Shown piece after piece: positions 46,782 to 64,000 of a stretch of 64,000 nt of DNA. A program made the position numbers and the translations under genes. The stretch comes from Pseudobutyrivibrio sp. YE44 (GTDB taxonomy: Bacteria > Bacillota > Clostridia > Lachnospirales > Lachnospiraceae), in NCBI RefSeq assembly GCF_900104335.1, contig NZ_FMXT01000001.1, positions 186,001 to 250,000 on the forward strand. The letters are read 5' to 3'. Numbering within the stretch: position 1 is the first letter of the stretch; the number at the start of each line of letters is the position of its first letter. Below the pieces are notes generated by a model. It saw only the letters and a program-made list of their open reading frames with translations. It ran no database searches and was not told where the DNA came from.

Positions 46782-49307
46782 ATGGCAGTAAATGTAAACG
46801 TCCCAAGTGATTTATCCAAGGTAAAGGAAAAGATTGCCTTTGGTCTGACTAAAAGGCAGGTAATCTGTTTTTCTCTAGCTGCACTTATTGGAATACCAAT
46901 ATTTTATTTGGTAAAGAAGCTTAATGTAGATATCAGTATTCCAACTCTTGCTATGATGGCGGTTATGATGCCGCTATTTTTTGTGGCTATGTATGAGAAG
47001 AATGGCGAAAATCTGGAGAAAATCATACAAAGGGCGATAGAGTTTAAGTTTAAAAAGAATCAGGAAACTGAGCTTTATGACAGGATGTATGCTGACGGTA
47101 TTTGTCTAACGGATGGAGATTTCTATTCTAAGACAATTGAGTTTAAAGACATCAATTATAAGCTGGCTTCTGAGGAGAATCAGCAGATGATATTTGAAGC
47201 GTGGAAGACATTTCTAAACTTTTTTGATACATCTGTTGAGTTTGAAATAACCTTTGCAAACGTATATGCGAAGGAAAATGAGTTGAGAGACAGACTAACA
47301 ATCAAAAGGCAGGGGGATGCATTTGATGAACTTAGGGATGAGTATTCTAAGATGCTGCTTCAAAATAAGGGCAGTCTTACAGATTCATTAACTAAGACAA
47401 AGTATCTCACTTTTGGTATTCATGCTTCATCACTTAGAGAAGCAAAAGGTCGTCTTAATAAGATTCAGGATAAAGTGATTGAAAACTTTGAGCAGATGGG
47501 TGTTGACTCCAGGACATTAGATGGCATGGAACGTCTTCAGATATTTAGAAGGCTGGGATTTAATACCAGAGAGTTTGCCAGTGAGACATCTTATCCAACA
47601 AAGAGCACTTTTAAGAAGAGTAATTACTTTGGTCAGGTATCTTGCTTTTCCTATGATTCACCAGAAATATCAGATCAGTTTATTGAGAACCTCTTAAGCT
47701 TTGATTCAGAGCAACTTGTAACTATTCACTTACAGTCTGTTAATCAGAATGAAGCTATCAGAGGTGTTAAGAGAAAGATAACTGATATCGATTCAAATAA
47801 GATTGATGAGCAGAAGAAAGCGGTTAAGGCTGGCTATGACATGGATTTGATTCCAAATGATTTGAACCTATATGGTAAAGATGCCAGCTCGATTCTTTCT
47901 AATCTGCAGAGTCAGAATGAGAGAATGTTTAAGATGACATTTCTTGTTATGTCTAAAGGTGAAACAAAGGAATCACTTAAGAATAATGTGAAGCAGACGA
48001 AGAGTATAGCTCAGCAGTTTAGCTGTGAAATATATCCGCTTGAATACAGGCAGGATAAGGCTATTAAGTCAGTACTTCCTTTAGGAGTGAATCTGATTAA
48101 GAAGGATAGAAATGTAACCACATCAGCGGTAGCTGTGTTTGTTCCGTTTCTTATTCCAGAACTTGATAAGACGGATGAGAATGATTTGTACTATGGAAAG
48201 AATGCTCTTACAGGAGAGTTAATCTTTGCCGACAGAAAAAAGAACAATAATCCAAATGGAATGTTCTTTGGAAAGCCAGGTTCAGGTAAATCTCTGGCAG
48301 CTAAGCGAGAAATCGCCAATGTAGTTTTATCAAGTGATGATGACATCATTATCAGCGATCCAGAGCGTGAGTACACACCATTGGTAGAACTATTTAATGG
48401 TCAGGTAATCCATATCAGCCAGAAGTCCACTCAGTATATTAATCCTATGGATATTAATGATAACTATTCTGATGGCGAGGATGCAGTTTCACTTAAGGCG
48501 GAGTTTCTTCTGTCATTATGTGAGTTGATTCTAAATCAAAGGGATGGTTTATCTGGTATTCAAAAGACCATTATTGATAGGTGTATTCGCAATGTATATG
48601 AGGAATATTATAAGAATCCTATTCCAGAGCGAATGCCACTTTTAGAAGACCTCTATAAGGAGCTTATGGCTCAAAATGAGCCAGAGGCAAAGGAGGTTGC
48701 AACTTCTCTTGAGCTATATGTAAAAGGCTCTCTAAATGTCTTTAATCATCGCACAAACGTAAACATTAACAACAGAATAGTTTGCTATGACATCAAAGAC
48801 CTAGGCAAGCAGCTTAAGAAGGTTGGAATGCTTATTGTTCATGATCAGGTGTGGGGCAGAGTCACTCTTAATAGAGATTTAGGAAAGACTACTCGCTACT
48901 ACATGGATGAGTTTCATCTACTTTTAAAGGATGAGCAGACAGCGGCTTATAGCGTTGAAATCTATAAGAGATTCAGAAAATGGGGCGGTATTCCAACAGC
49001 TCTTACACAGAATGTAAAGGACGTTTTATGTAGCCCAGAGATTAGCAATATCTTTGAGAACTGTGAGTTTGTTTACATGCTTAATCAAGGATCAGAAGAT
49101 AAGCAGATTTTGGCAGAGAGTCTTGGCATTAGTGAAGCTCAGCTTAAGTATGTGACGAATGCTCCTTCTGGCAGAGGATTAATGTTCTGTGGAAGTGTGG
49201 TTATTCCATTCAAGGATAACTTCCCTAAGGACAATATCCTTTATCAGTATCTGACTACAAAGCCAGAGGAACTGGCTCAGATTAAACAGAGGAAGGGAGG
49301 CTTGTAG
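46782..49307 (+). CDS. PrgI domain fused to VirB4-type conjugation ATPase
   Basis: An 841-residue protein. Residues about 1-95 match PrgI (VNVPSDLSKVKEKIAFGLTK, two membrane helices at about 28-45 and 52-70). The rest is VirB4/CD1110: ATPase Walker A GMFFGKPGSGKSLAAKREI (about residues 488-506), Walker B-type TTRYYMDEFHLLLKDEQTAA (about 705) and FRKWGGIPTALTQNVKDVL. In many related elements PrgI and VirB4 are separate genes, so this looks like a fusion. It drives assembly of the mating channel. The next start codon overlaps its stop. Confidence 0.92.
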   Translation: MAVNVNVPSDLSKVKEKIAFGLTKRQVICFSLAALIGIPIFYLVKKLNVDISIPTLAMMAVMMPLFFVAMYEKNGENLEKIIQRAIEFKFKKNQETELYDRMYADGICLTDGDFYSKTIEFKDINYKLASEENQQMIFEAWKTFLNFFDTSVEFEITFANVYAKENELRDRLTIKRQGDAFDELRDEYSKMLLQNKGSLTDSLTKTKYLTFGIHASSLREAKGRLNKIQDKVIENFEQMGVDSRTLDGMERLQIFRRLGFNTREFASETSYPTKSTFKKSNYFGQVSCFSYDSPEISDQFIENLLSFDSEQLVTIHLQSVNQNEAIRGVKRKITDIDSNKIDEQKKAVKAGYDMDLIPNDLNLYGKDASSILSNLQSQNERMFKMTFLVMSKGETKESLKNNVKQTKSIAQQFSCEIYPLEYRQDKAIKSVLPLGVNLIKKDRNVTTSAVAVFVPFLIPELDKTDENDLYYGKNALTGELIFADRKKNNNPNGMFFGKPGSGKSLAAKREIANVVLSSDDDIIISDPEREYTPLVELFNGQVIHISQKSTQYINPMDINDNYSDGEDAVSLKAEFLLSLCELILNQRDGLSGIQKTIIDRCIRNVYEEYYKNPIPERMPLLEDLYKELMAQNEPEAKEVATSLELYVKGSLNVFNHRTNVNINNRIVCYDIKDLGKQLKKVGMLIVHDQVWGRVTLNRDLGKTTRYYMDEFHLLLKDEQTAAYSVEIYKRFRKWGGIPTALTQNVKDVLCSPEISNIFENCEFVYMLNQGSEDKQILAESLGISEAQLKYVTNAPSGRGLMFCGSVVIPFKDNFPKDNILYQYLTTKPEELAQIKQRKGGL

Positions 49308-52599: not shown

Positions 52600-53763
52600 A
52601 TGGCAACAACAAGACTCATGCCTATACATGTATCAGCAGGAAAAAGTGTCTTGCATAGCTTAAAGGCCAGAATGGATTATTATCGAAATGGTGATAAGAC
52701 AGAAGAGGGAAAATTGCTAAGTGGATACGAGTGCGACCCAGAAACAGCAGAGGAAGAGTTCATGCTTTCTAAACAAGAATACCACAATTCAAAATGGTCC
52801 ATTCGTAAAAACGAAGTAATTGCTTACCAGATCAGACAGTCATTTAAGCCTGGAGAGATAACACCTGAAAAAGCAAATGAGATAGGTTATGAGCTTGCTA
52901 TGAGATTCACGAAAGGCAAATATGCTTTTATAGTAGCGACACATGATGATACTAAGCACATTCACAATCACATAGCTTTTAACTCTGTCAGTGTTGATGG
53001 AAAGAGCAAATTTAAGAACTTCTTTAATTCATCTTTTACGCTACAGCATCTATCAGATTTAATCTGTTTAGAGAATGGTTTATCTGTCGTTGAGGAAAGA
53101 AAAAACAGGTATAAGGGTAAGGCTAAATCTAAAAAGAAGGCGCTAAACATAAAAGATGGAAAGCTAGAGTTTGTAAAAGATCTAGAGAATAAAATTCTTG
53201 AAGGTAAAGGAAAAGGCTATGTTAATTGGGCCAAACGTTTCAATGCAAAGCAGCTTTCTAAGACGATTCTATTCCTTCAGGACAAAGGGATTTCTTCATT
53301 TGAAGAGCTGAAAGCTCTCACTGATGAGAAGAATTTAAAAATGAATGAGCTCAAAGAAGTGATGAAATCTAAAGAAAAACAGCTTGGAGAAAATAAGAAA
53401 TTGCAAAATGCCATAATTGATTTTGCTAAAACAAAGCCGGTTTATGATGAGTACAAGAAACGAAAATTTTCTAAAAGCTTTTATGAGGAACATGAAGGAG
53501 AATTGCTTGTGTATAAAAAGGCAGTGGCTGTTTTTGATGAAAGTGGATATAAGAAGATTCCAAAGTTGAATCAGCTAAGACAAGACTATGGTGTTATCCT
53601 GCAGGAGAAGAAGGATGCTTTTAGTGAGTATCAGCAGCTACAAAAGGATTTTAAAGATTATCTAATTGCCAGAAAGAATCTGGAGATAATCTACGAAAAG
53701 GAAGAGCAGCAAAAAGAGAAAAGTTCGAAGTCGAAGACTTCGTTGCTAGACCAGAATTTGTAA
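52600..53763 (+). CDS. Relaxase/mobilisation nuclease
   Basis: A 387-residue MobP/MobA-VirD2-type relaxase. The HUH-type metal site is AFIVATHDDTKHIHNHIAFN (about residues 108-127). The upstream part includes NEVIAYQIRQSFKPGEITPE and GYELAMRFTKGKY. The second half (about 190-387) is basic and coiled. It nicks oriT and leads the strand into the recipient. At 387 residues it is on the short side for the group, so the C-terminus may be reduced. The tyrosine nucleophile is probably in the first 40 residues (MDYYRNG). Confidence 0.88.
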   Translation: MATTRLMPIHVSAGKSVLHSLKARMDYYRNGDKTEEGKLLSGYECDPETAEEEFMLSKQEYHNSKWSIRKNEVIAYQIRQSFKPGEITPEKANEIGYELAMRFTKGKYAFIVATHDDTKHIHNHIAFNSVSVDGKSKFKNFFNSSFTLQHLSDLICLENGLSVVEERKNRYKGKAKSKKKALNIKDGKLEFVKDLENKILEGKGKGYVNWAKRFNAKQLSKTILFLQDKGISSFEELKALTDEKNLKMNELKEVMKSKEKQLGENKKLQNAIIDFAKTKPVYDEYKKRKFSKSFYEEHEGELLVYKKAVAVFDESGYKKIPKLNQLRQDYGVILQEKKDAFSEYQQLQKDFKDYLIARKNLEIIYEKEEQQKEKSSKSKTSLLDQNL

Positions 53764-56333: not shown

Positions 56334-57170
56334 ATGGCAAAAAATCTATTGTTAAGCCCGATGTTGAAATGGGTCGGAGGAAAAAGGCAGTTATTGTCAG
56401 ATATAGTACCTATGATTGATGATAAATGCTCTACTTATGTAGAACCATTTGTTGGGGGTGGCGCAGTTTTGTTTAGCATGCAGCCTAGGAAAGCCATTAT
56501 TAACGATTACAATGAAGAATTAATCAATGTTTATACAACTGTTAGAGATAACTTAGAAGAATTATTAGATAAATTAAAGGAGCATGAATCTAAAAATTCA
56601 GCTGAATATTTTTATGAAATAAGAGCTTTAGACCGTGAAGAAGCTTTTGCTAATATGTCTGCTGTTGATAGAGCGGCAAGAATTATTTATCTAAATAAGA
56701 CTTGTTACAATGGATTATATAGAGTTAATTCTGCTGGACAGTTTAACTCTCCATATGGAAAGTATAAAAATCCGAATATTGTTAATGAACCTGTGATTAG
56801 AGCAATTTCTAAGTATTTTACTACAAATGATATTAAAATTCTTAATGGAGATTACAAGGATGCGTTAAAAAACATAAATAAGGATTCATTTGTTTACCTT
56901 GATCCTCCATATATGCCGATATCATCGTCATCATCTTTTACAGGATATACTGAAGGTGGTTTTGGATATAGCAAGCAAGTTGAATTAAAGGAAGAGTGTG
57001 ATAAATTAGCAAAAAAAGGGATACATTTTGTTCAATCTAATTCTGATTGTGAAGAGATTAGAGAATTGTATAAAGATTATAAGATAAAGACTGTTAAAGC
57101 CAAAAGAAGTATTAATAGTGTAGGTAATAAACGAGGAGAGATTAACGAAGTAATTATCTATAATTTTTAG
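56334..57170 (+). CDS. Dam-type (D12 class) DNA adenine methyltransferase
   Basis: A 278-residue N6-adenine methyltransferase. The SAM-binding start is LKWVGGKRQLLSDIVP (about 11-26) and EPFVGGGAVLFS (37-48). NKTCYNGLYRVNSAGQFNSP (121-140) is the family signature, and the catalytic DPPY is at residues 190-193 (SFVYLDPPYMP). It resembles DpnM/Dam enzymes, so GATC is a reasonable but unproven target. It would protect host DNA from the adjacent restriction enzyme. The next gene begins 11 bases later. Confidence 0.93.
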   Translation: MAKNLLLSPMLKWVGGKRQLLSDIVPMIDDKCSTYVEPFVGGGAVLFSMQPRKAIINDYNEELINVYTTVRDNLEELLDKLKEHESKNSAEYFYEIRALDREEAFANMSAVDRAARIIYLNKTCYNGLYRVNSAGQFNSPYGKYKNPNIVNEPVIRAISKYFTTNDIKILNGDYKDALKNINKDSFVYLDPPYMPISSSSSFTGYTEGGFGYSKQVELKEECDKLAKKGIHFVQSNSDCEEIRELYKDYKIKTVKAKRSINSVGNKRGEINEVIIYNF

Positions 57171-57181
57171 GGGGACTACAA

Positions 57182-58471
57182 ATGAATGCTAATGAGGCTT
57201 GGCAAAAGCTTATAGATAAATATAATATTTTAAAACATGTTGATGATAATGGCATTTTTCATATAAAAGCGAATGAAATCAAAGAGTTTAAGGAACCTAG
57301 GCTGATGGCAAAGTGGGACTGTAAAGCTGCTTTGCCATCTGTTTTTAAAGCTAATAATTTGAATATATTACCCGATAGTAGAACTTCGTATGTATTGGGG
57401 AGATTTCTTCTTTATAAAGAAATTCCAGAGTTAACAGAATCGGTTAATAAAATGGATTACGTTGAACTCCCAGATTATGAAACAATAGATGTTAATAATA
57501 TTTCTTCTGAAGCTAATGCAATCAATGTACTTATTCTATCTGGAATTTTAGACGATTTCCTTGAAGACGAGGGTACTGTTGAGACGTTCAATGGAAGAAT
57601 GGGGACTGGGGAATTTGATTTTGTTGTTGATACTGTAGATGGTAATAAACAATTTATAAGTGTCAGAAATGCTCAATGTGAAATTGATGGTGGTTTTGAA
57701 AATGATAGTGATGTAATTATTATGGAAGCCAAGAATGTTTTGAATGAAGACTTTCATATCAGGCAGTTATATTATCCGTATAGGTTGTGGAAAAAGAAAG
57801 TAACTAAACCAATTAGGTTAGTTTTTTCAATATATTCAAATATGATATTTCGATTGTTTGAATATAGATTTGTTGATGAAAATGATTATTCATCAATTGA
57901 ACTGGTTAAGACAAAGAATTATTCGCTACAAGATACTACAATCGAAATAGAAGATTTGATAGATGTGCGAAAGAAAACAGATGTAAAGTATCAGGATAAT
58001 CAAAATGTTGATCTAAAGGTTCCATTCATTCAGGCAAATTCTTTTGAACGAGTTATTTCATTACTCGAAAACATGAAGGATAATCCTATGACTACAGAGC
58101 AAATTGCTCAACTTATGGAATTTGATGAGAGACAGTCGGATTATTATTATAATGCAGGTGCTTACTTAGGATTGTTTGTTAAAGTTAGGGAAGATAAACA
58201 AACAAAAATTATCTTAACTAAATTGGGTGAAGAAGTACTATCCTTAAATTATAAGCAACGTCAGTTAAAGTTCGTTGAGTTAATGCTGCAACATAAAATA
58301 TTTGCCGTTTGTTTTGACATGATTCTTGAAAATGATGGTGAAATGCCAGATAAAGAAACTATCGCTGATTTAATGAGAAATTATAATGTATGTAACGAAG
58401 GACAGATTATTCGAAGAGCAAGTTCTGTTCAAGGATGGTTGAAATGGATTTTTAACCTTAGAAATTTATAG
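57182..58471 (+). CDS. Probable type II restriction endonuclease (PD-(D/E)XK)
   Basis: A 429-residue protein. CEIDGGFENDSDVIIMEAKN (residues about 166-185) has an aspartate, then E182 and K184, the arrangement of a PD-(D/E)XK active site, and is followed by HIRQLYYPYRLWKK. An earlier TGEFDFVVD strand fits the fold. The C-terminal third (about 275-430) looks like winged-helix modules (MTTEQIAQLMEFDERQSDYY). It follows a Dam-type methylase with 11 bases between, as in type II restriction-modification pairs. The cleavage site is unknown. Confidence 0.78.
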   Translation: MNANEAWQKLIDKYNILKHVDDNGIFHIKANEIKEFKEPRLMAKWDCKAALPSVFKANNLNILPDSRTSYVLGRFLLYKEIPELTESVNKMDYVELPDYETIDVNNISSEANAINVLILSGILDDFLEDEGTVETFNGRMGTGEFDFVVDTVDGNKQFISVRNAQCEIDGGFENDSDVIIMEAKNVLNEDFHIRQLYYPYRLWKKKVTKPIRLVFSIYSNMIFRLFEYRFVDENDYSSIELVKTKNYSLQDTTIEIEDLIDVRKKTDVKYQDNQNVDLKVPFIQANSFERVISLLENMKDNPMTTEQIAQLMEFDERQSDYYYNAGAYLGLFVKVREDKQTKIILTKLGEEVLSLNYKQRQLKFVELMLQHKIFAVCFDMILENDGEMPDKETIADLMRNYNVCNEGQIIRRASSVQGWLKWIFNLRNL

Positions 58472-58532: not shown

Positions 58533-60272
58533 ATGGAGGAGAAATATACATTTCTTAAGGAATTTTATGGAAGAAAAGAATTAGAGGAAGCATATGGTGA
58601 TAATGCTTTATTATTATACGCGTTGCAATTGAAATTTGATATCGAAGATATTGATTCGATCGCCGCAGATGCGTTGACTGATGGAGCTGATGATAAGAAA
58701 TGTGATTTAATCTTTGTAGATCGAGAATTAGGTGTTGCAATCGTTGCGCAAGCATATAATAGAACTAATCCTAAAGATACAGATTTAGCAAAAGAGAATA
58801 AAGCCAGTGATTTAAATACAGCTGCAGCTTGGGTTTTTTCTGATGATACTTCAGAGGTACCTAATACTATAAAAGATGCAGTACTTGATTTACAAGATGC
58901 GATAAAAGAGCAAGCTATATCATCTGTTTGTTTTTGGTATGTTCATAATTTGGATGAAAATAATAATCCTAAGATTGCTATCGAGATGGCTAAAATACAA
59001 GAACAAGTTCAAGCAGCTGTTGATAGCAAATATTCTGAGCAAGAACTTAAAATTAATACTCTTGAAGTAGGGTTAAATACAATCCAAAAATGGTTTGATA
59101 ATTCTACAAGAAGAATATCTGTTGAAAAAGATTATATTGTTGAATGTTATAAAGGATTTGAGTTAAGTGCTGAATCTTGGAGAGCATATGTTACTGCTGT
59201 TTCAGGAAAATGGCTCCGTAATTTATATTTAGAAAATAAAGACGACTTATTTTCTGGAAATCCTAGAAATTATTTAGGAAATGCCAAGAGAAAGCATAAT
59301 ATTAATAGTGGCATTATGGATTCTGTTCAAGATGAGCCTGAGAATTTTTGGGCATATAATAATGGTGTTACAGCCTTGGTTAATGATTTCTATTATGATA
59401 ATGATAAAGATGAGTTATCAATCAAGGGGATAACTATTATTAACGGAGCACAGACTACAGGAGCTATTAGTGCCCCAGAAAATCTAGAAAACGATTTTTA
59501 TATTCCATGCAGATTTATTGTTTGTAGTAAGAAATCTATCATAGAGTCGATAATTAATAATAACAACAAACAAAATGAAATATTACCATCAGATTTAAGA
59601 AGTAATGATAAACAACAAGAACGATTACGCAATGAGTTTAAAAAATATCCAGCATTATTCTACAATGGTGGAAGAAGAGATGATACCATTGTAAAAAATA
59701 AAGTTGTTTTCGAACCATATTTAGTGGCTCAGACGATTCTTACTTTTCATGGAGACAGTGTAACTGGTTATAATGGTAGAAAACGTATTTGGGATGAAGA
59801 TAAATTGTATTCACAGGTATTTGTAGACCAATTATCAGTTGAACATATTATTTTTGTATATTCTTTGTCAAAAGCAATCGATGAGTATAAAAATAATTTG
59901 CGAAAAAAGAAAGAATCTCGTAATGATACAGAACAGCAACAAATGGAGTTTTTATCAAAACGCGGTTCTAAGATGTTGCTAATTGCAACTATCTCAGAGT
60001 GTATAGAAGATATTATGGATGTTAAAATTAGCGATAAGTGGAAACTACAGTTTAAGGATAATAGTGATTTTGAAAAGCTTATTCAATTGTGGACTTCAGT
60101 TATAAGCTCAATAATTTCATTTAATAGTAATCTGGAACCTGCATTAGAAGGGGGATTGAAAAATAAGGAACTAGTTAATTCACAAATTAAAGTTGTTAAA
60201 AGTATTGTGGCTTCAGTTAAGGGATATCTGAATACACAGTTACAAAGTGTAATTGACGAAATTCAAAAGTGA
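58533..60272 (+). CDS. AIPR family protein (abortive infection phage resistance)
   Basis: A 579-residue protein of the AIPR (PF10592) family. The core is PENFWAYNNGVTALVNDFYY (from about residue 268), GITIINGAQTTGAIS and INNNNKQNEILPSDLRSND (about 348), followed by FEPYLVAQTILTFH. The N-terminal part (about 40-75, KKCDLIFVDRELGVAIVAQA) sits where other members have a PD-(D/E)XK-like nuclease segment, but the usual QSK is QAY here. It is 61 bases after the restriction gene and is followed by a terminator, so it closes that unit. Confidence 0.87.
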   Translation: MEEKYTFLKEFYGRKELEEAYGDNALLLYALQLKFDIEDIDSIAADALTDGADDKKCDLIFVDRELGVAIVAQAYNRTNPKDTDLAKENKASDLNTAAAWVFSDDTSEVPNTIKDAVLDLQDAIKEQAISSVCFWYVHNLDENNNPKIAIEMAKIQEQVQAAVDSKYSEQELKINTLEVGLNTIQKWFDNSTRRISVEKDYIVECYKGFELSAESWRAYVTAVSGKWLRNLYLENKDDLFSGNPRNYLGNAKRKHNINSGIMDSVQDEPENFWAYNNGVTALVNDFYYDNDKDELSIKGITIINGAQTTGAISAPENLENDFYIPCRFIVCSKKSIIESIINNNNKQNEILPSDLRSNDKQQERLRNEFKKYPALFYNGGRRDDTIVKNKVVFEPYLVAQTILTFHGDSVTGYNGRKRIWDEDKLYSQVFVDQLSVEHIIFVYSLSKAIDEYKNNLRKKKESRNDTEQQQMEFLSKRGSKMLLIATISECIEDIMDVKISDKWKLQFKDNSDFEKLIQLWTSVISSIISFNSNLEPALEGGLKNKELVNSQIKVVKSIVASVKGYLNTQLQSVIDEIQK

Positions 60273-60291: not shown

Positions 60292-60330
60292 AAAGCACAC
60301 GAGATGATAATTTCGTGTGCTTTATTTATT
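60292..60330 (+). terminator. Terminator after the AIPR gene
   Basis: AAAGCACACGA pairs with TCGTGTGCTTT, 11 perfect pairs, followed by ATTTATTTTA. It separates the two parts of the defence island. Confidence 0.85.
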
Positions 60331-60418
60331 TTATAAAATTATCATAGATATTTGATATAAATATATTCATCATAGTTAGAATTATTGGAAAACAGATATA
60401 CGATTGTTAATCGGTGAA

Positions 60419-60427
60419 TGTTATAAT
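60419..60427 (+). promoter_or_regulatory. Extended -10 promoter of the helicase operon
   Basis: TG-T-TATAAT is an extended -10 box 35 bases before the TTG start; no good -35 box is visible at the usual distance. Confidence 0.5.
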
Positions 60428-60461
60428 TATACTATTAAAGGGGTTGTGAGGGGGTATACAA

Positions 60462-62417
60462 TTGAGCATAACGCTTTGGCCACGTGAATATGAAAAGAAA
60501 TCTCATATTATTCCAGAAGAAAAGGCATTATTAAGAATTGCTACTAAAAATTTTAAAGAAGGACATTTTGTTGTAGGAATAGATCCGCTTGGTATGTGTA
60601 CCAATGAAAATCATATGGGATTATATATTTCGCCAGAAGAGGGGTTAATTACATTTTCTATTTATACAGGTGATTTTATTGAGAAGATGATCGACAGCTA
60701 CATCATGATGGTAAAGATGTATGAAGATAAAATCTACAATAGATTACTTGATTCTAAAGTATTAATTTCTAGAGTAGGAGAATCAAAAATCCTAAAATTT
60801 CCATATAAGCATATTATGGTGTTTTCTAATGAAGATAGATTGAAAATGGAATGTTCCATAGAAAATAGGAAATTAATTTCGGAATATGCAACAGCAAGAA
60901 ATTTTACTCCTATAGATAACACCGATTCAAAACTTAAACTAAAAGATTTACATCTATTTAGGGATATTAGAAAGCCATATGATGCAAATTTTATTGATTT
61001 GTCAGAAGTAGAAAATGCCGCAATATTTGAAAGACTTGCACCTGAGTATGCCGTAGTAATACCAGAAAAAGAACATATAACAATCTCAGATGGTAGAAAA
61101 ACTGGTGTTTCTGATGAGGACTTACTAATTACTGGAAATGAAAGTGAGTTCAAAACATTTTTCTTGGATGATGACCAAGTTAACATAGTTAATGATATGG
61201 GAAAAGGACACAGAGTACTATTAGCTAATCCCGGTGCAGGTAAAAGTGTACTTTTATTATCTAAAGCTTTTAAATACGCAAGTATGTATAAGGATTCAAA
61301 AGTATTGTTGACATGTTTTAATAATAATTTGGCTGATTCTTATGTTTTCAAGTACAGTTGCGCTAACTTTGGGGACAATAGAAATTTATATATATTGACA
61401 TTGCATAAATTAGTTAAAAAATTATTTAATGATTGCTTAGGTAGAGGTATTGAAGGTAATATTGCAACACCAGAGGAGATAGATGAATGTATAAGGCTGG
61501 TAAAAAATGGAAATATTAAACAACGTTTTAAAGCAATTTTTATAGATGAAGTTCAAATATTTGAACCTAAGTATTTGGAGTTATGCTATGCATTATTGGA
61601 ATCACCAGTAGAAGATAGTCTTTTTTTGATGGCTGGAGATTTGAATCAAACAGTACGCTCTCAAAGTAGACGCGGAGATGCTCCTTGGAAAAAGATTGAG
61701 GGAGTTAATTTAGATTTTAAGGGGAGAGTACGTTACGTTAAAAAAAATTATCGCAATACAAAAGAGATAGGCGAATATTTAAATGCTATGCTCAAATACA
61801 TGAATCAAAAAATGGAAAATTTAGGAATAATGATTCCATCGGAATATGATTATGATTCATTTGAAGTAAACGATAGGCCATCAATTGCGTTAAAAGTAAA
61901 AACTGGTGTGACTAGAAATAACATAGTAGATGAGGTGCTAAAATCACTTTTTGAAATTGTTAATAGCTATGACGTAGCGTATTCGGATATTGCGATCATA
62001 TTTCCGTACAGACAGATGAAAAATCTTAAGTACTATTTTATGTATTGGCTCGAAAGAGAATTTAACCAAATGGGTATACCGTACTGTACTATCATTTCTT
62101 CTGAAGGAGATAAGTATAGAAGATATAGTCAAACTAGCGGTGTGGTATTAACTACAATAGATTCATCTCTTGGATTAGATTTTAAAGCAGTAATAGTAGC
62201 GGGATTATATCCGTATAATTTTGTTTATTCTGAGTCTGGAGCAAAATCTCAAGTAAAGTCGTGGGAGCAAGTTGAAAAGTTTGGACCAGAAATGAAAGAA
62301 CGGTTTATGCTCGAAGTTAGAAAAACATATACAGCTGCATCTCGCGCTAGAGAAATTTTATATGTTATAAGTGACGTCGATGAAGGTACACCTTTAAATG
62401 ATGTTATACAGGAATAG
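60462..62417 (+). CDS. SF1 (UvrD-like) helicase with an N-terminal extra domain
   Basis: A 651-residue protein starting at TTG after GAGGGGG. Residues about 1-240 are an unassigned domain containing IDPLGMCTNENHMGLYISPE and EEGLITFSIYTGDF, possibly NERD-like. The helicase part has Walker A VLLANPGAGKSVLLLSKAF (about residue 256), Walker B AIFIDEVQIFEPKYLELC (about 358), GDLNQTV, KKNYRNTKEIGEYLNAML (about 427), and C-terminal VVLTTIDSSLGLDFKAVIV and TYTAASRAREILYVIS. It is ten bases upstream of the DrmA-like gene. Confidence 0.85.
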   Translation: MSITLWPREYEKKSHIIPEEKALLRIATKNFKEGHFVVGIDPLGMCTNENHMGLYISPEEGLITFSIYTGDFIEKMIDSYIMMVKMYEDKIYNRLLDSKVLISRVGESKILKFPYKHIMVFSNEDRLKMECSIENRKLISEYATARNFTPIDNTDSKLKLKDLHLFRDIRKPYDANFIDLSEVENAAIFERLAPEYAVVIPEKEHITISDGRKTGVSDEDLLITGNESEFKTFFLDDDQVNIVNDMGKGHRVLLANPGAGKSVLLLSKAFKYASMYKDSKVLLTCFNNNLADSYVFKYSCANFGDNRNLYILTLHKLVKKLFNDCLGRGIEGNIATPEEIDECIRLVKNGNIKQRFKAIFIDEVQIFEPKYLELCYALLESPVEDSLFLMAGDLNQTVRSQSRRGDAPWKKIEGVNLDFKGRVRYVKKNYRNTKEIGEYLNAMLKYMNQKMENLGIMIPSEYDYDSFEVNDRPSIALKVKTGVTRNNIVDEVLKSLFEIVNSYDVAYSDIAIIFPYRQMKNLKYYFMYWLEREFNQMGIPYCTIISSEGDKYRRYSQTSGVVLTTIDSSLGLDFKAVIVAGLYPYNFVYSESGAKSQVKSWEQVEKFGPEMKERFMLEVRKTYTAASRAREILYVISDVDEGTPLNDVIQE

Positions 62418-62427
62418 GGGGACAATA

Positions 62428-64000
62428 ATGGCTAATAATTATAATCTTTTAGCGGAATATATAGTTGAAAAATATATAGCTGACATATCAGGTACAAATC
62501 TTGGTGAGCGATTTGTTGGAGCTGAGCCAGAAAAAACTGTTATGGTAGGTATGTTAGCTGAAGGAAGAATGGAAAAATCTTTTGATGGAACATATTCTGA
62601 AAATCCTGAACGTAGATTTGAAAGTGTTCCATCAATTTCTCTTCATTTTAAGATTAAAAATGATACAAATGGAAAAATAAGAATAGTGCCAAAGGGATTA
62701 CTATTCTATACAGTTCTGCCTAAATATGAAGAGATAAGAGAATACATATTAAAGCGTTTTTCTGAAGAGGACAATTGTAAATACGAGAGTATTGAGGAAT
62801 TAACGGATCTATATGCAGATAAAAAGATTGAATTGCCAAAAGTATATAAAAAAATTGATTTAGAGAAGATTTTTGGTAAAGGAATTGAAGTTGAACTGAA
62901 CGCTCTTGCGTTAGGAAAAAGTGATTTTGATGAGGATATTGCAGCAATACTTTCTACAAGTCTAAGTGAACAAGTATATTCTGAGATTGCTATTGTAAAT
63001 GAAATGCAAATATCTATTTTTGATTTACTAACTAAGGATGCATTTAACAAGAAATGTTCTAAAAAAAATGAACAGGTTATTCCAGATTGGAAGATAGGAT
63101 TACAATCATATGTTAGTTTATCAAATGATGTATATGAAATATCGTTGCAACTGATTAATAATACTCGTTCAAATACCAGGGCTGATATAGGATATAGCCC
63201 AAGGATATTTAATGCCGGTATAGGGGTTTTTGCTGAAAATACAACATTTGAAGAAATAGAGATTGATTATTTCAAAAAAAGCTATAAAGATAGAGAACCT
63301 GTCTATGCCGTTGCAGAAAATTCTTCATCTAGATTTGACGCAACTGCGAATATGATAACTACAGAAAACGTTCCTATATACAGGCAAAAACGTTTGATTA
63401 CAAATGAAACTTATAAAGACTATTGTTGCTTTGATAAGTTAATAGATGATCCTATTTCAAATTTATCATACTTACTTGAGAAAATGCGAAAGGATTATGA
63501 TGGTAGAATTAACGAATATAATGCTAAAAAGCATTTATTAAGTGATATTGCTAATGATAAATATCTAAGAGATTTAGAAGACTACAAGATAGAAATCGAT
63601 CGTTTTGAGGCTGGAATAAAACAGATCGAATTGAAGGATTATGTAAAAAAGGCCTTCAAATACATGAATATGACATTTAAACAGGAGATGCCTGTAGGAA
63701 CTGAAAACAAAATCAAAGGGTGGAGATTATTCCAGTTAGTATTCATAGTTTCATTAATTCCTGAGATGATTAGAAGTGAATATCCTGATGATAGCTCGAT
63801 TAAAGAAGCGGATAATGAGGTAAGTAACCTTCTTTATTTTCCAACAGGTGGTGGTAAAACAGAGGCATTTTTAGGTGCAACTGTTTTTGATATGTTTTTT
63901 GATAGGTTACGTGGTAAGGATGAGGGTATAACCGCTATTCTAAAATATCCATTAAGGTTGTTAGCTGTTCAACAGTTGGATCGTGTCCTCACTGTTGTAA
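62428..64000 (+). CDS. DrmA-like helicase, N-terminal part (runs off the window)
   Basis: The frame is open from ATG 62428, with AGGGGG just upstream, to the window end, giving 524 residues of a longer protein. The start MANNYNLLAEYIVEKYIADI is followed by AEPEKTVMVGMLAEGRME, like the opening of DISARM DrmA proteins. The helicase begins at LLYFPTGGGKTEAFLGATVF (Walker A about residue 470) and ITAILKYPLRLLAVQQLDRV, a motif pair characteristic of DrmA and related DUF1998-linked helicases. Full members exceed 1000 residues. Whether DrmB and DrmC genes follow cannot be seen. Confidence 0.8.
   Translation, partial: MANNYNLLAEYIVEKYIADISGTNLGERFVGAEPEKTVMVGMLAEGRMEKSFDGTYSENPERRFESVPSISLHFKIKNDTNGKIRIVPKGLLFYTVLPKYEEIREYILKRFSEEDNCKYESIEELTDLYADKKIELPKVYKKIDLEKIFGKGIEVELNALALGKSDFDEDIAAILSTSLSEQVYSEIAIVNEMQISIFDLLTKDAFNKKCSKKNEQVIPDWKIGLQSYVSLSNDVYEISLQLINNTRSNTRADIGYSPRIFNAGIGVFAENTTFEEIEIDYFKKSYKDREPVYAVAENSSSRFDATANMITTENVPIYRQKRLITNETYKDYCCFDKLIDDPISNLSYLLEKMRKDYDGRINEYNAKKHLLSDIANDKYLRDLEDYKIEIDRFEAGIKQIELKDYVKKAFKYMNMTFKQEMPVGTENKIKGWRLFQLVFIVSLIPEMIRSEYPDDSSIKEADNEVSNLLYFPTGGGKTEAFLGATVFDMFFDRLRGKDEGITAILKYPLRLLAVQQLDRVLTVV

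Follow-up and report, generated by a model that had tools for sequence, protein, structure and literature searches.

What kind of system is formed by a superfamily 1 (SF1) helicase whose gene lies directly before that of a DrmA-like helicase? The question is raised by the end of a 64,000-nucleotide stretch of Pseudobutyrivibrio sp. YE44 (the window; bases 186001-250000 of an 891,515-base contig in a genome of 3.24 Mb, designated G000), where the initial annotation had noted a 651-residue UvrD-like helicase ten bases upstream of a gene with a DrmA-type opening, and had proposed either a variant of DISARM (defence island system associated with restriction-modification) or an undescribed multi-gene system carried by an integrative conjugative element (ICE). 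Sequence comparison places the two genes in a conserved four-gene unit, SF1-drmA-drmB-NERD-helicase, which probably serves in anti-phage defence and combines the two core proteins of DISARM with a nuclease-helicase and one further helicase. We lean, with slightly better than even confidence, to the more specific reading that this operon is a DISARM-related, restriction-type anti-phage cassette on an ICE in which the NERD-helicase stands in for the nuclease DrmC. The genes of the operon are as follows (window numbering throughout; other genomes and loci are cited by G and L numbers where they must be told apart).

60462-62417, + strand: SF1 (UvrD/GajB-like) helicase, 651 amino acids, TTG start
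62428-65838, + strand (62428-64000 within the window): drmA, SF2 (YprA-type) helicase, 1136 amino acids
65855-67753, beyond the window: drmB
67755-69347, beyond the window: NERD-SF1 nuclease-helicase
69350-73477, beyond the window: gene of a 1375-amino-acid protein

The successive gaps between these five genes are 10, 16, 1 and 2 nt, the first of them being measured to the conserved drmA start at 62428 (MANNYN...), which confirms the ten-base spacing reported initially; the mechanical open reading frame start at 62398 would overlap the SF1 gene by 20 nt. At a threshold of 1e-20, two of 299 family genomes have the SF1 helicase, the window's own among them. Genome contigs scanned with two SF1 sequences yielded ten further loci, all of them in Clostridia and one (L023) in a family-mate of the window, G268; as the scan relied on two short peptide patterns, this is to be read as at least ten further loci. 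In 10 of the resulting 11 loci drmA directly follows SF1 (L031 ends within SF1), and the order SF1-drmA-drmB-NERD-helicase is found in all eight loci that are readable that far, L025 and L029 ending in or just after drmA. The gaps among the four genes amount to 1-35 nt in the five loci measured, and, apart from the truncation of L031, every cassette member keeps the motifs sought in SF1, DrmA and NERD-helicase. With its fixed order, short gaps and intact motifs, SF1-drmA-drmB-NERD-helicase is thus a conserved four-gene unit, and the helicase pair singled out by the initial annotation proves to be conserved with it. Viral contigs hold no SF1 relative; among plasmids, 13 records have distant SF1 matches at 1e-10 (22.9-27% identity) and 84 have distant DrmA matches, and for the plasmid loci of Planktothrix and Fischerella that gave SF1-like matches the product names in incomplete gene tables include no drmA.

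When defence-system profiles were run, PADLOC named DrmA, DrmB and the NERD-helicase (as RTasNERD-Hel). DrmA matches its PADLOC model at E 2.2e-138 and, as a profile, the DISARM DrmA chain 7s9v_A at E 3.4e-57, and the PTGGGKTEA motif on which its naming had initially been based recurs in nine of nine DrmA proteins. DrmB matches its PADLOC model at E 1.6e-44 and 7s9v_B at E 1.9e-6, while Pfam at 0.01 lists no DUF1998/MZB domain in it. Both proteins score far under the NCBIfam cut-offs (363 bits against 950 for the DrmA equivalog, 91 against 240 for DrmB_fam) and are therefore divergent members. In a 28-row DrmA tree the window family forms one clade (support 100/100) on a long stem (1.97) that joins three haloarchaeal DISARM-type DrmA proteins (12 rows, 97/92); a protein annotated as DrmE is present at two of the three haloarchaeal loci, and L020 and L022 were labelled by class from gene place. 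The placing is provisional because of the long branches and uneven composition of several rows. The structure model of DrmA (predicted local distance difference test score, pLDDT, 42) was unusable.

The SF1 protein consists of an N-terminal domain (residues ~1-230) and a helicase core starting at ~235 (Pfam UvrD_C, E 9e-7), with ANPGAGKS and IDEVQ motifs in 11 of 11 proteins and 54-60% identity between the window protein and its ten relatives. The codon aligned to its TTG start is ATG in all ten, which makes this start plausible. On the SF1 proteins of L026, L028, L030 and L032 there is a C-terminal extension of ~200 residues ending in WWTKSNK, shorter in L024 and lacking from the window protein. 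PADLOC matches its NERD+UvrD model to the helicase part only (E 6.8e-22), and nothing in Pfam, NCBIfam or PADLOC matches the N-terminal domain of the window protein, described from the start as unassigned. Among PDB folds the SF1 structure model comes closest to Schlafen proteins, UvrD and AddAB, GajB ranking 49th; the query TM-scores of the 50 matches listed lie at 0.19-0.37 and thus support the SF1 class only. Two things hinted that the N-terminal domain might be a dead NERD nuclease: the succession of helices and strands in the model, judged by eye, and a PADLOC NERD+UvrD match from residue 97 in L028. The idea was rejected, as the hhalign score of SF1 residues 1-230 with 13 NERD-type domains, 13.7, falls short of both the mean (15.1) and the maximum (21.6) of 40 column-shuffled controls.

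The PADLOC match of the NERD-helicase has an E of 2.7e-54, Pfam NERD is found in the window protein (2.5e-11) and in that of L024 (5.9e-10), and all 10 proteins examined for them, eight of them from cassettes, retain the NERD motifs E[AS]DF and EVK. The initial annotation had suggested looking for drmB and drmC beyond position 64000; drmB is there and no drmC was detected, six tblastn queries for DrmC giving no match at 1e-3 in 18 stretches of the family loci, with a control in which 18 of 20 query-to-other-locus pairs matched at about 1e-4 or better. Remote phospholipase D (PLD) domains, such as those in L040 and L044, escape this test. The PADLOC DrmC model fires in seven of seven genomes, inside a PLD-ResIII-DUF3427 protein in G605 and otherwise away from the cassette, and is non-specific, since it also fires in 11 of 14 controls.

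A wider sample of drmA loci bears on the same point. At 1e-30 the family DrmA matches 10 of 348 genomes of the phylum, G000 included, and one locus was examined in each of the other nine, the sequence before drmA being unreadable in G1315 (where drmA is cut) and G763. A UvrD helicase stands directly before drmA in three of these nine loci, a NERD-helicase or relative stands beside drmA/drmB in three, and both occur in one, G691 (L086, 790-14998), which reads Hsp70-like gene, UvrD helicase, drmA, drmB, NERD-helicase (Pfam NERD 1.1e-13). G644 and G1300 likewise have Hsp70-like, UvrD and drmA genes, followed by drmB in G1300, while the G644 contig ends. The UvrD-like helicase that had seemed unusual beside drmA is thus not unique, SF1-type helicases standing there in other loci of the phylum; for the gene set as a whole no name was found. 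In its own right, the arrangement of Hsp70-like and UvrD genes directly before drmA (L086, L085 and L084, with drmB in L086 and L084) is another recurring DrmAB gene set, of which no description was recognised in the open-access literature searched. In G613 (L087, 6380-13076) a 485-residue MzaA-like protein (PADLOC 3.9e-60) directly precedes drmA and drmB. G620 (L092, 717-11726) encodes a C5 methylase, a DrmE_C protein (Pfam 2.9e-10), a NERD-like helicase, drmA and drmB, and G818 (L091, 5104-14707) a protein 86% identical to the L092 DrmE, a NERD-like helicase, drmA and drmB; neither has a stand-alone PLD gene after drmB. Such a gene occurs in one locus of this small sample, in G1298 (Pfam PLDc_2 1.3e-15, DrmC-like by place, with UvrD genes on the other strand), where no NERD-helicase is seen in the stretch read, and in none of the three loci with a NERD-helicase. 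A NERD-type helicase without a stand-alone DrmC both in the window operon and in the DrmE-bearing L092 suggests nuclease replacement, and the NERD-helicase may accordingly take the place of DrmC. PLD-bearing enzymes near some loci, of the type IV type, temper this suggestion; proteins that join PLD to a restriction-type helicase are possibly a recurring neighbour of DrmAB loci:

L040, 5983-9144: PLD, ResIII, DUF3427
L044, 2532-5687: PLD, ResIII, DUF3427
L092, 13892-16000: PLD with restriction-type helicase
L091, 2205-4595: PLD with restriction-type helicase (PADLOC mREase_IV)

The initial annotation had drawn its island to include an upstream methylase and an AIPR gene, and the surroundings of the operon in the window are these.

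56334-57170, + strand: D12-class (Dam-like) adenine methylase, 278 amino acids, a possible part of the system, paired here with a type II enzyme
57182-58471, + strand: type II restriction enzyme (DUF6996/6997/7226; PADLOC REase_II, E 8e-93), a non-conserved neighbour
58533-60272, + strand: AIPR/AbiU-like gene, 579 amino acids, a non-conserved neighbour
60292-60323, + strand: intrinsic-terminator-like hairpin of 14 pairs with a T-rich tail, between the AIPR-side genes and the SF1 operon
60404-60433, + strand: weak promoter-like site TTGTTA-18-TATACT (9 of 12), 5' of SF1
46782-49307: VirB4-like ATPase
52600-53763: relaxase
L003, 2576-3847, beyond the window: tyrosine integrase

Of these genes the methylase may be a part of the system; the other two are not conserved with it. 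A D12 adenine methylase lies near the cassette in all eight readable loci, upstream in two (the window and L023, whose enzyme is 54% identical to the window's and ends 20 nt 5' of SF1) and downstream in six, where a methylase here called dam2 (28-33% identical to the window's) overlaps the NERD-helicase gene by 1 or 13 nt in six of six; DPPY is kept in nine of nine methylases (two dam, seven dam2), and another pattern missed six dam2 proteins. The restriction enzyme and the AIPR protein have no tblastn match at 1e-5 in 16 stretches around the other ten SF1 loci. Because of the hairpin behind the AIPR gene, SF1 probably opens a unit separate from the upstream genes; four terminator-like sites were found in 6.5 kb, 1.3 being expected, and this stem is the longest (14 pairs, the others 5-7). 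Promoter-like sites number 48, with 36.9 expected, so that the single site before SF1 is little evidence. The region carrying the cassette, which is sited between relaxase and tyrosine integrase and adjoins the type II restriction-modification genes, looks like an integrative conjugative element, as the initial annotation had proposed, the VirB4-like ATPase, relaxase and integrase all being named from reading the sequence. The surroundings of the other cassettes differ, likewise by reading, though L024 also resembles a mobile element.

If the operon works as a DISARM-related defence cassette, the following sequence of events can be envisaged. The D12 methylase would mark host DNA, by analogy with DISARM as a self signal for DrmAB. 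DrmA with DrmB would load on unmarked DNA that enters the cell with free single-stranded ends, in keeping with what has been reported of the DISARM pair: a preference for DNA with 5' overhangs, restraint by a trigger loop in DrmA, and lower activity on methylated DNA (PMC9142583). The SF1 helicase and the NERD-SF1 protein would extend unwinding, the NERD nuclease, which is of the PD-(D/E)xK type and retains its motif residues, would cut the DNA in place of DrmC, and in this genome the 1375-residue protein might be added as a sensor or scaffold. Several findings weigh against this reading. Confidence in the SF1 model is low (pLDDT 62), and the SF1 N-terminal domain has no NERD match above shuffled controls. 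The helicases of L091 (at 0.01) and L092 (at 0.001) lack a Pfam NERD match, their naming as NERD-like resting on BLAST (E 2e-16 and 2e-15) and motifs. In two of the five cassettes with readable downstream sequence (L024/L040 and L030/L044), the PLD-ResIII-DUF3427 proteins follow the DndB-like gene, two genes (L040) or one gene (L044) after the NERD-helicase-dam2-DndB run; L092 also has such a protein downstream and L091 one on the opposite strand, and a PLD nuclease could come from proteins of this kind. The dam2 gene travels with a DndB/DpdB-like gene in six of seven genomes searched, the seventh (L029) having a cut cassette; a dam2/DndB-like pair stands alone in contig C2 of G610 (L045, 5078-8129; DndB-like protein 42% identical); and the window methylase lies behind the terminator with a restriction enzyme of its own. 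The 1375-residue protein is present in only one of eight complete cassettes. What the sequences show is gene content, conserved order, intact motifs, relatives and no detected DrmC in the operon; that the cassette defends, that the methylase marks self, that the proteins form a complex and cut DNA, that DrmC has been replaced and what the 1375-residue protein does are matters that we infer.

The dam2 observations speak for a different account, in which independent modules lie side by side, a helicase cassette next to a methylase/DndB-like or methylase/restriction enzyme pair, so that the methylase stands outside the DrmAB system. The lone dam2-DndB-like pair of G610 and the pairing of the two genes elsewhere indicate that the cassette methylase may belong to exchangeable modules of restriction-modification type, and the terminator between AIPR and SF1 and the position of the methylase, upstream in two loci and downstream in six, fit this account as well. 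Set against it are the recurrence of a D12 methylase in every readable locus, its overlap with the NERD-helicase gene in all six dam2 loci, and L023, where the methylase directly precedes SF1 and the type II enzyme of the window is not found. We regard independent modules as a serious contender, at rather less than even weight. The stand-alone pair in L045, of D12 methylase and DndB/DpdB-like protein, is itself possibly a new pair resembling restriction-modification.

The 1375-residue protein raises the question of membership at the other end of the operon. It has no tblastn match at 1e-5 in 16 stretches around the ten other SF1 loci and none in PADLOC; its start resembles the C-terminal domain of the RNA polymerase alpha subunit (alpha-CTD; three-protein profile, positions 8-62, against PDB chains, E 7e-8), which in the window protein alone is below the Pfam cut-off. 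Downstream of it (L002, 14611-17392) follow a 221-residue gene and an acidic 707-residue gene, both without a PADLOC match and the former also without a Pfam or NCBIfam match. Long relatives whose flanks could be read came from G503 and G514 at order level (344 genomes, four with a match) and in G1119, G680 and G1138 at class level (391 genomes). The latter search gave 23 matching genomes, of which four are long (G000, G1119, G680, G1138), G950 matches residues 101-330 only, and 18 match within residues 3-121, mostly the alpha-CTD-like stretch, and probably represent rpoA itself; the count of long relatives leaves out G950, these 18 and G444, whose match covers residues 101-441 only and is fused to an HNH domain. 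In L014 (46-4640) the N-terminal domain of the family is fused to an HNH nuclease and adjoins a C5 methylase and a MutH-family enzyme, which suggests a recognition domain shared with restriction enzymes. Two plasmid matches to the N-terminal part are both annotated HNH, and the two relatives from viral contigs sit at contig ends, the contig stopping at or within the gene, and no cassette gene lies in the sequence available around them.

A DruE-like helicase comes directly after the long relatives in five of five loci; those of G503 and G514 match PADLOC DruE at E 8e-174 and 1e-168, and those of G1119, G680 and G1138 are 81, 43 and 40% identical to that of G503 by BLAST. The sets of 1375-residue-type protein, DruE-like helicase and NERD-helicase in L013 (3829-14976) and L066 (569-10508) are a possible variant of Druantia III. 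The protein was considered as a homologue of DruH, which is assigned to the YjiT family (PMC13192584), and this found no support: with full-length E. coli YjiT/DruH (L071) as reference, hmmsearch and hhalign gave no similarity and phmmer one match at E 0.43. The PADLOC DruH model has no match in G000 at E 10; in 299 genomes of the phylum it found nothing, and as the controls were also silent that search is uninformative. With no credible similarity by three methods, the family is best called a DruE-associated partner family, an identity with DruH being unsupported by sequence. As a side observation, E. coli K-12 (L070, 10415-14856) has a yjiT of 505 residues and a pseudogene yjiV, where the L071 strain has a 1096-residue YjiT and a 2114-residue helicase; the K-12 genes are probably a remnant Druantia III.

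These associations allow the view that the 1375-residue protein is a leftover from a Druantia-like system since lost and is unrelated to DrmAB. Its rarity among the cassettes and the constant company of DruE elsewhere, with no DruE match in G000 at 1e-10, speak for this view; against it, 2 nt separate the gene from the end of the NERD-helicase gene, and in G503 and G680 DruE, too, is followed by a NERD-helicase, which makes NERD-helicase and 1375-residue genes repeated neighbours. On balance a stray origin is unlikely, while retaining some force.

Less probable still is that the locus is a plain class 2 DISARM, with drmE diverged into SF1, drmC lost or replaced, and no new kind of system. SF1 occupies the drmE position, the haloarchaeal DrmA proteins that the window clade joins come largely from loci with annotated DrmE, and L092 has DrmE alongside a NERD-like helicase. 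L092 nevertheless holds both DrmE and a helicase, the methylase of the cassettes is of the D12 rather than the C5 type, and SF1 as a diverged DrmE found no support in weak tests: neither Pfam nor PADLOC gives a DrmE match, nor did comparing profiles with four reference proteins yield one, though only one of these (L019) is annotated DrmE. A role in DNA repair or conjugative processing of the element, to which the two SF1 helicases, a YprA/MrfA-family SF2 helicase with a repair branch elsewhere in its family (PMC12458937) and the ICE setting could point, is very improbable, as DrmA groups with DISARM-type DrmA, the window neighbours are restriction and AIPR/AbiU genes, and the other cassettes have differing surroundings, L024 again excepted.

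If the DISARM-related reading is correct, its interest lies in the steps after DrmAB loading. What cuts DNA in DISARM is unsettled, and DrmC appears non-essential (PMC9142583); a DrmAB cassette with a NERD nuclease-helicase and no DrmC detected is a natural test of those steps. The use of NERD-helicases and the 1375-residue family with both DrmAB and DruE would show one pool of parts for DISARM and Druantia. A bolder proposal, offered tentatively and at well under even confidence, is that SF1, DrmA, DrmB, NERD-helicase and D12 methylase constitute a distinct, unnamed DrmAB immune class in Clostridia, with the NERD nuclease-helicase replacing DrmC, and that here it also took over a partner of DruE-type helicases, so that DISARM-type and Druantia-type systems would exchange sensor or effector parts.

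Among named systems, ARMADA, BRIGADE and TALON do not fit as the identity of the cassette by their gene sets (PMC12458937, accessible part). ARMADA type II, comprising BrxHII-like, PglX-like, YprA and GajB-like proteins, the last with a RelE-like domain, shares with the cassette a YprA-family SF2 helicase, an SF1 GajB/UvrD-type helicase and a methylase (PMC12458937); its YprA, however, carries an OB-CON-DUF1998 module and a Vsr nuclease, whereas DrmB is a separate gene here, and of the cassette proteins scanned with PADLOC, Pfam and NCBIfam none was called BrxHII or PglX. TALON combines YprA with a NERD nuclease, TPR-CSD and TBP (PMC12458937) and so resembles the cassette in having a NERD nuclease near a YprA-family helicase; here, in contrast, NERD is fused to an SF1 helicase and DrmA is of DISARM type, and TPR-CSD and TBP are absent from the Pfam matches of the operon, no search having been aimed at either. 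Druantia type III consists of DruH and DruE (PMC13192584, PMC13316683), and relatives of the 1375-residue protein hold the DruH place before DruE-like helicases in five of five loci, but G000 has no DruE and the family no similarity to E. coli DruH. For the gene set as a whole, no description was recognised in the open-access literature searched, the tables of PMC12458937, part of which was accessible, being a place where these loci may be contained; both halves of the initial proposal, kinship with DISARM and a system not yet named, are to that extent retained.

DISARM itself is defined in PADLOC by DrmA, B, C, D and MI or by DrmA, B, C, E and MII (PMC9252829), and ShdA proteins occur inside DISARM-like operons (PMC10270631). 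The cassette has DrmA and, as a separate gene after drmA, DrmB, and DrmC phospholipase-D nuclease is not detected in the operon. DrmD (SNF2) and DrmMI gave no tblastn match at 1e-3, the queries being one DNA methyltransferase and part of one DrmD from L093, in a weak test with no cross-species positive; DrmE gave none in the family loci with four queries, two of them annotated DrmE, at low sensitivity; and DrmMII gave none with one C5 query, the methylases scanned (window, L024, L027) being of the D12 adenine type. With class 1 the cassette shares DrmA, DrmB and an adenine methylase, differing in the lack of DrmC and of a DrmD or DrmMI match and in having a small D12 enzyme as methylase. The likeness to class 2 extends to separate, adjacent drmA and drmB, a DrmA that joins the haloarchaeal DrmA of DrmE-bearing loci, a methylase nearby and a gene directly before drmA, while that gene is here SF1, a NERD-nuclease helicase follows drmB, no DrmC or DrmE is detected in the operon, and the methylase is a D12 adenine rather than a C5 cytosine enzyme. 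Since DrmA and DrmB are present, DrmC is undetected in a search with a working, non-exhaustive control, and DrmD, DrmE, DrmMI and DrmMII are undetected in weaker tests, the cassette is DISARM-related and stands outside DISARM proper.

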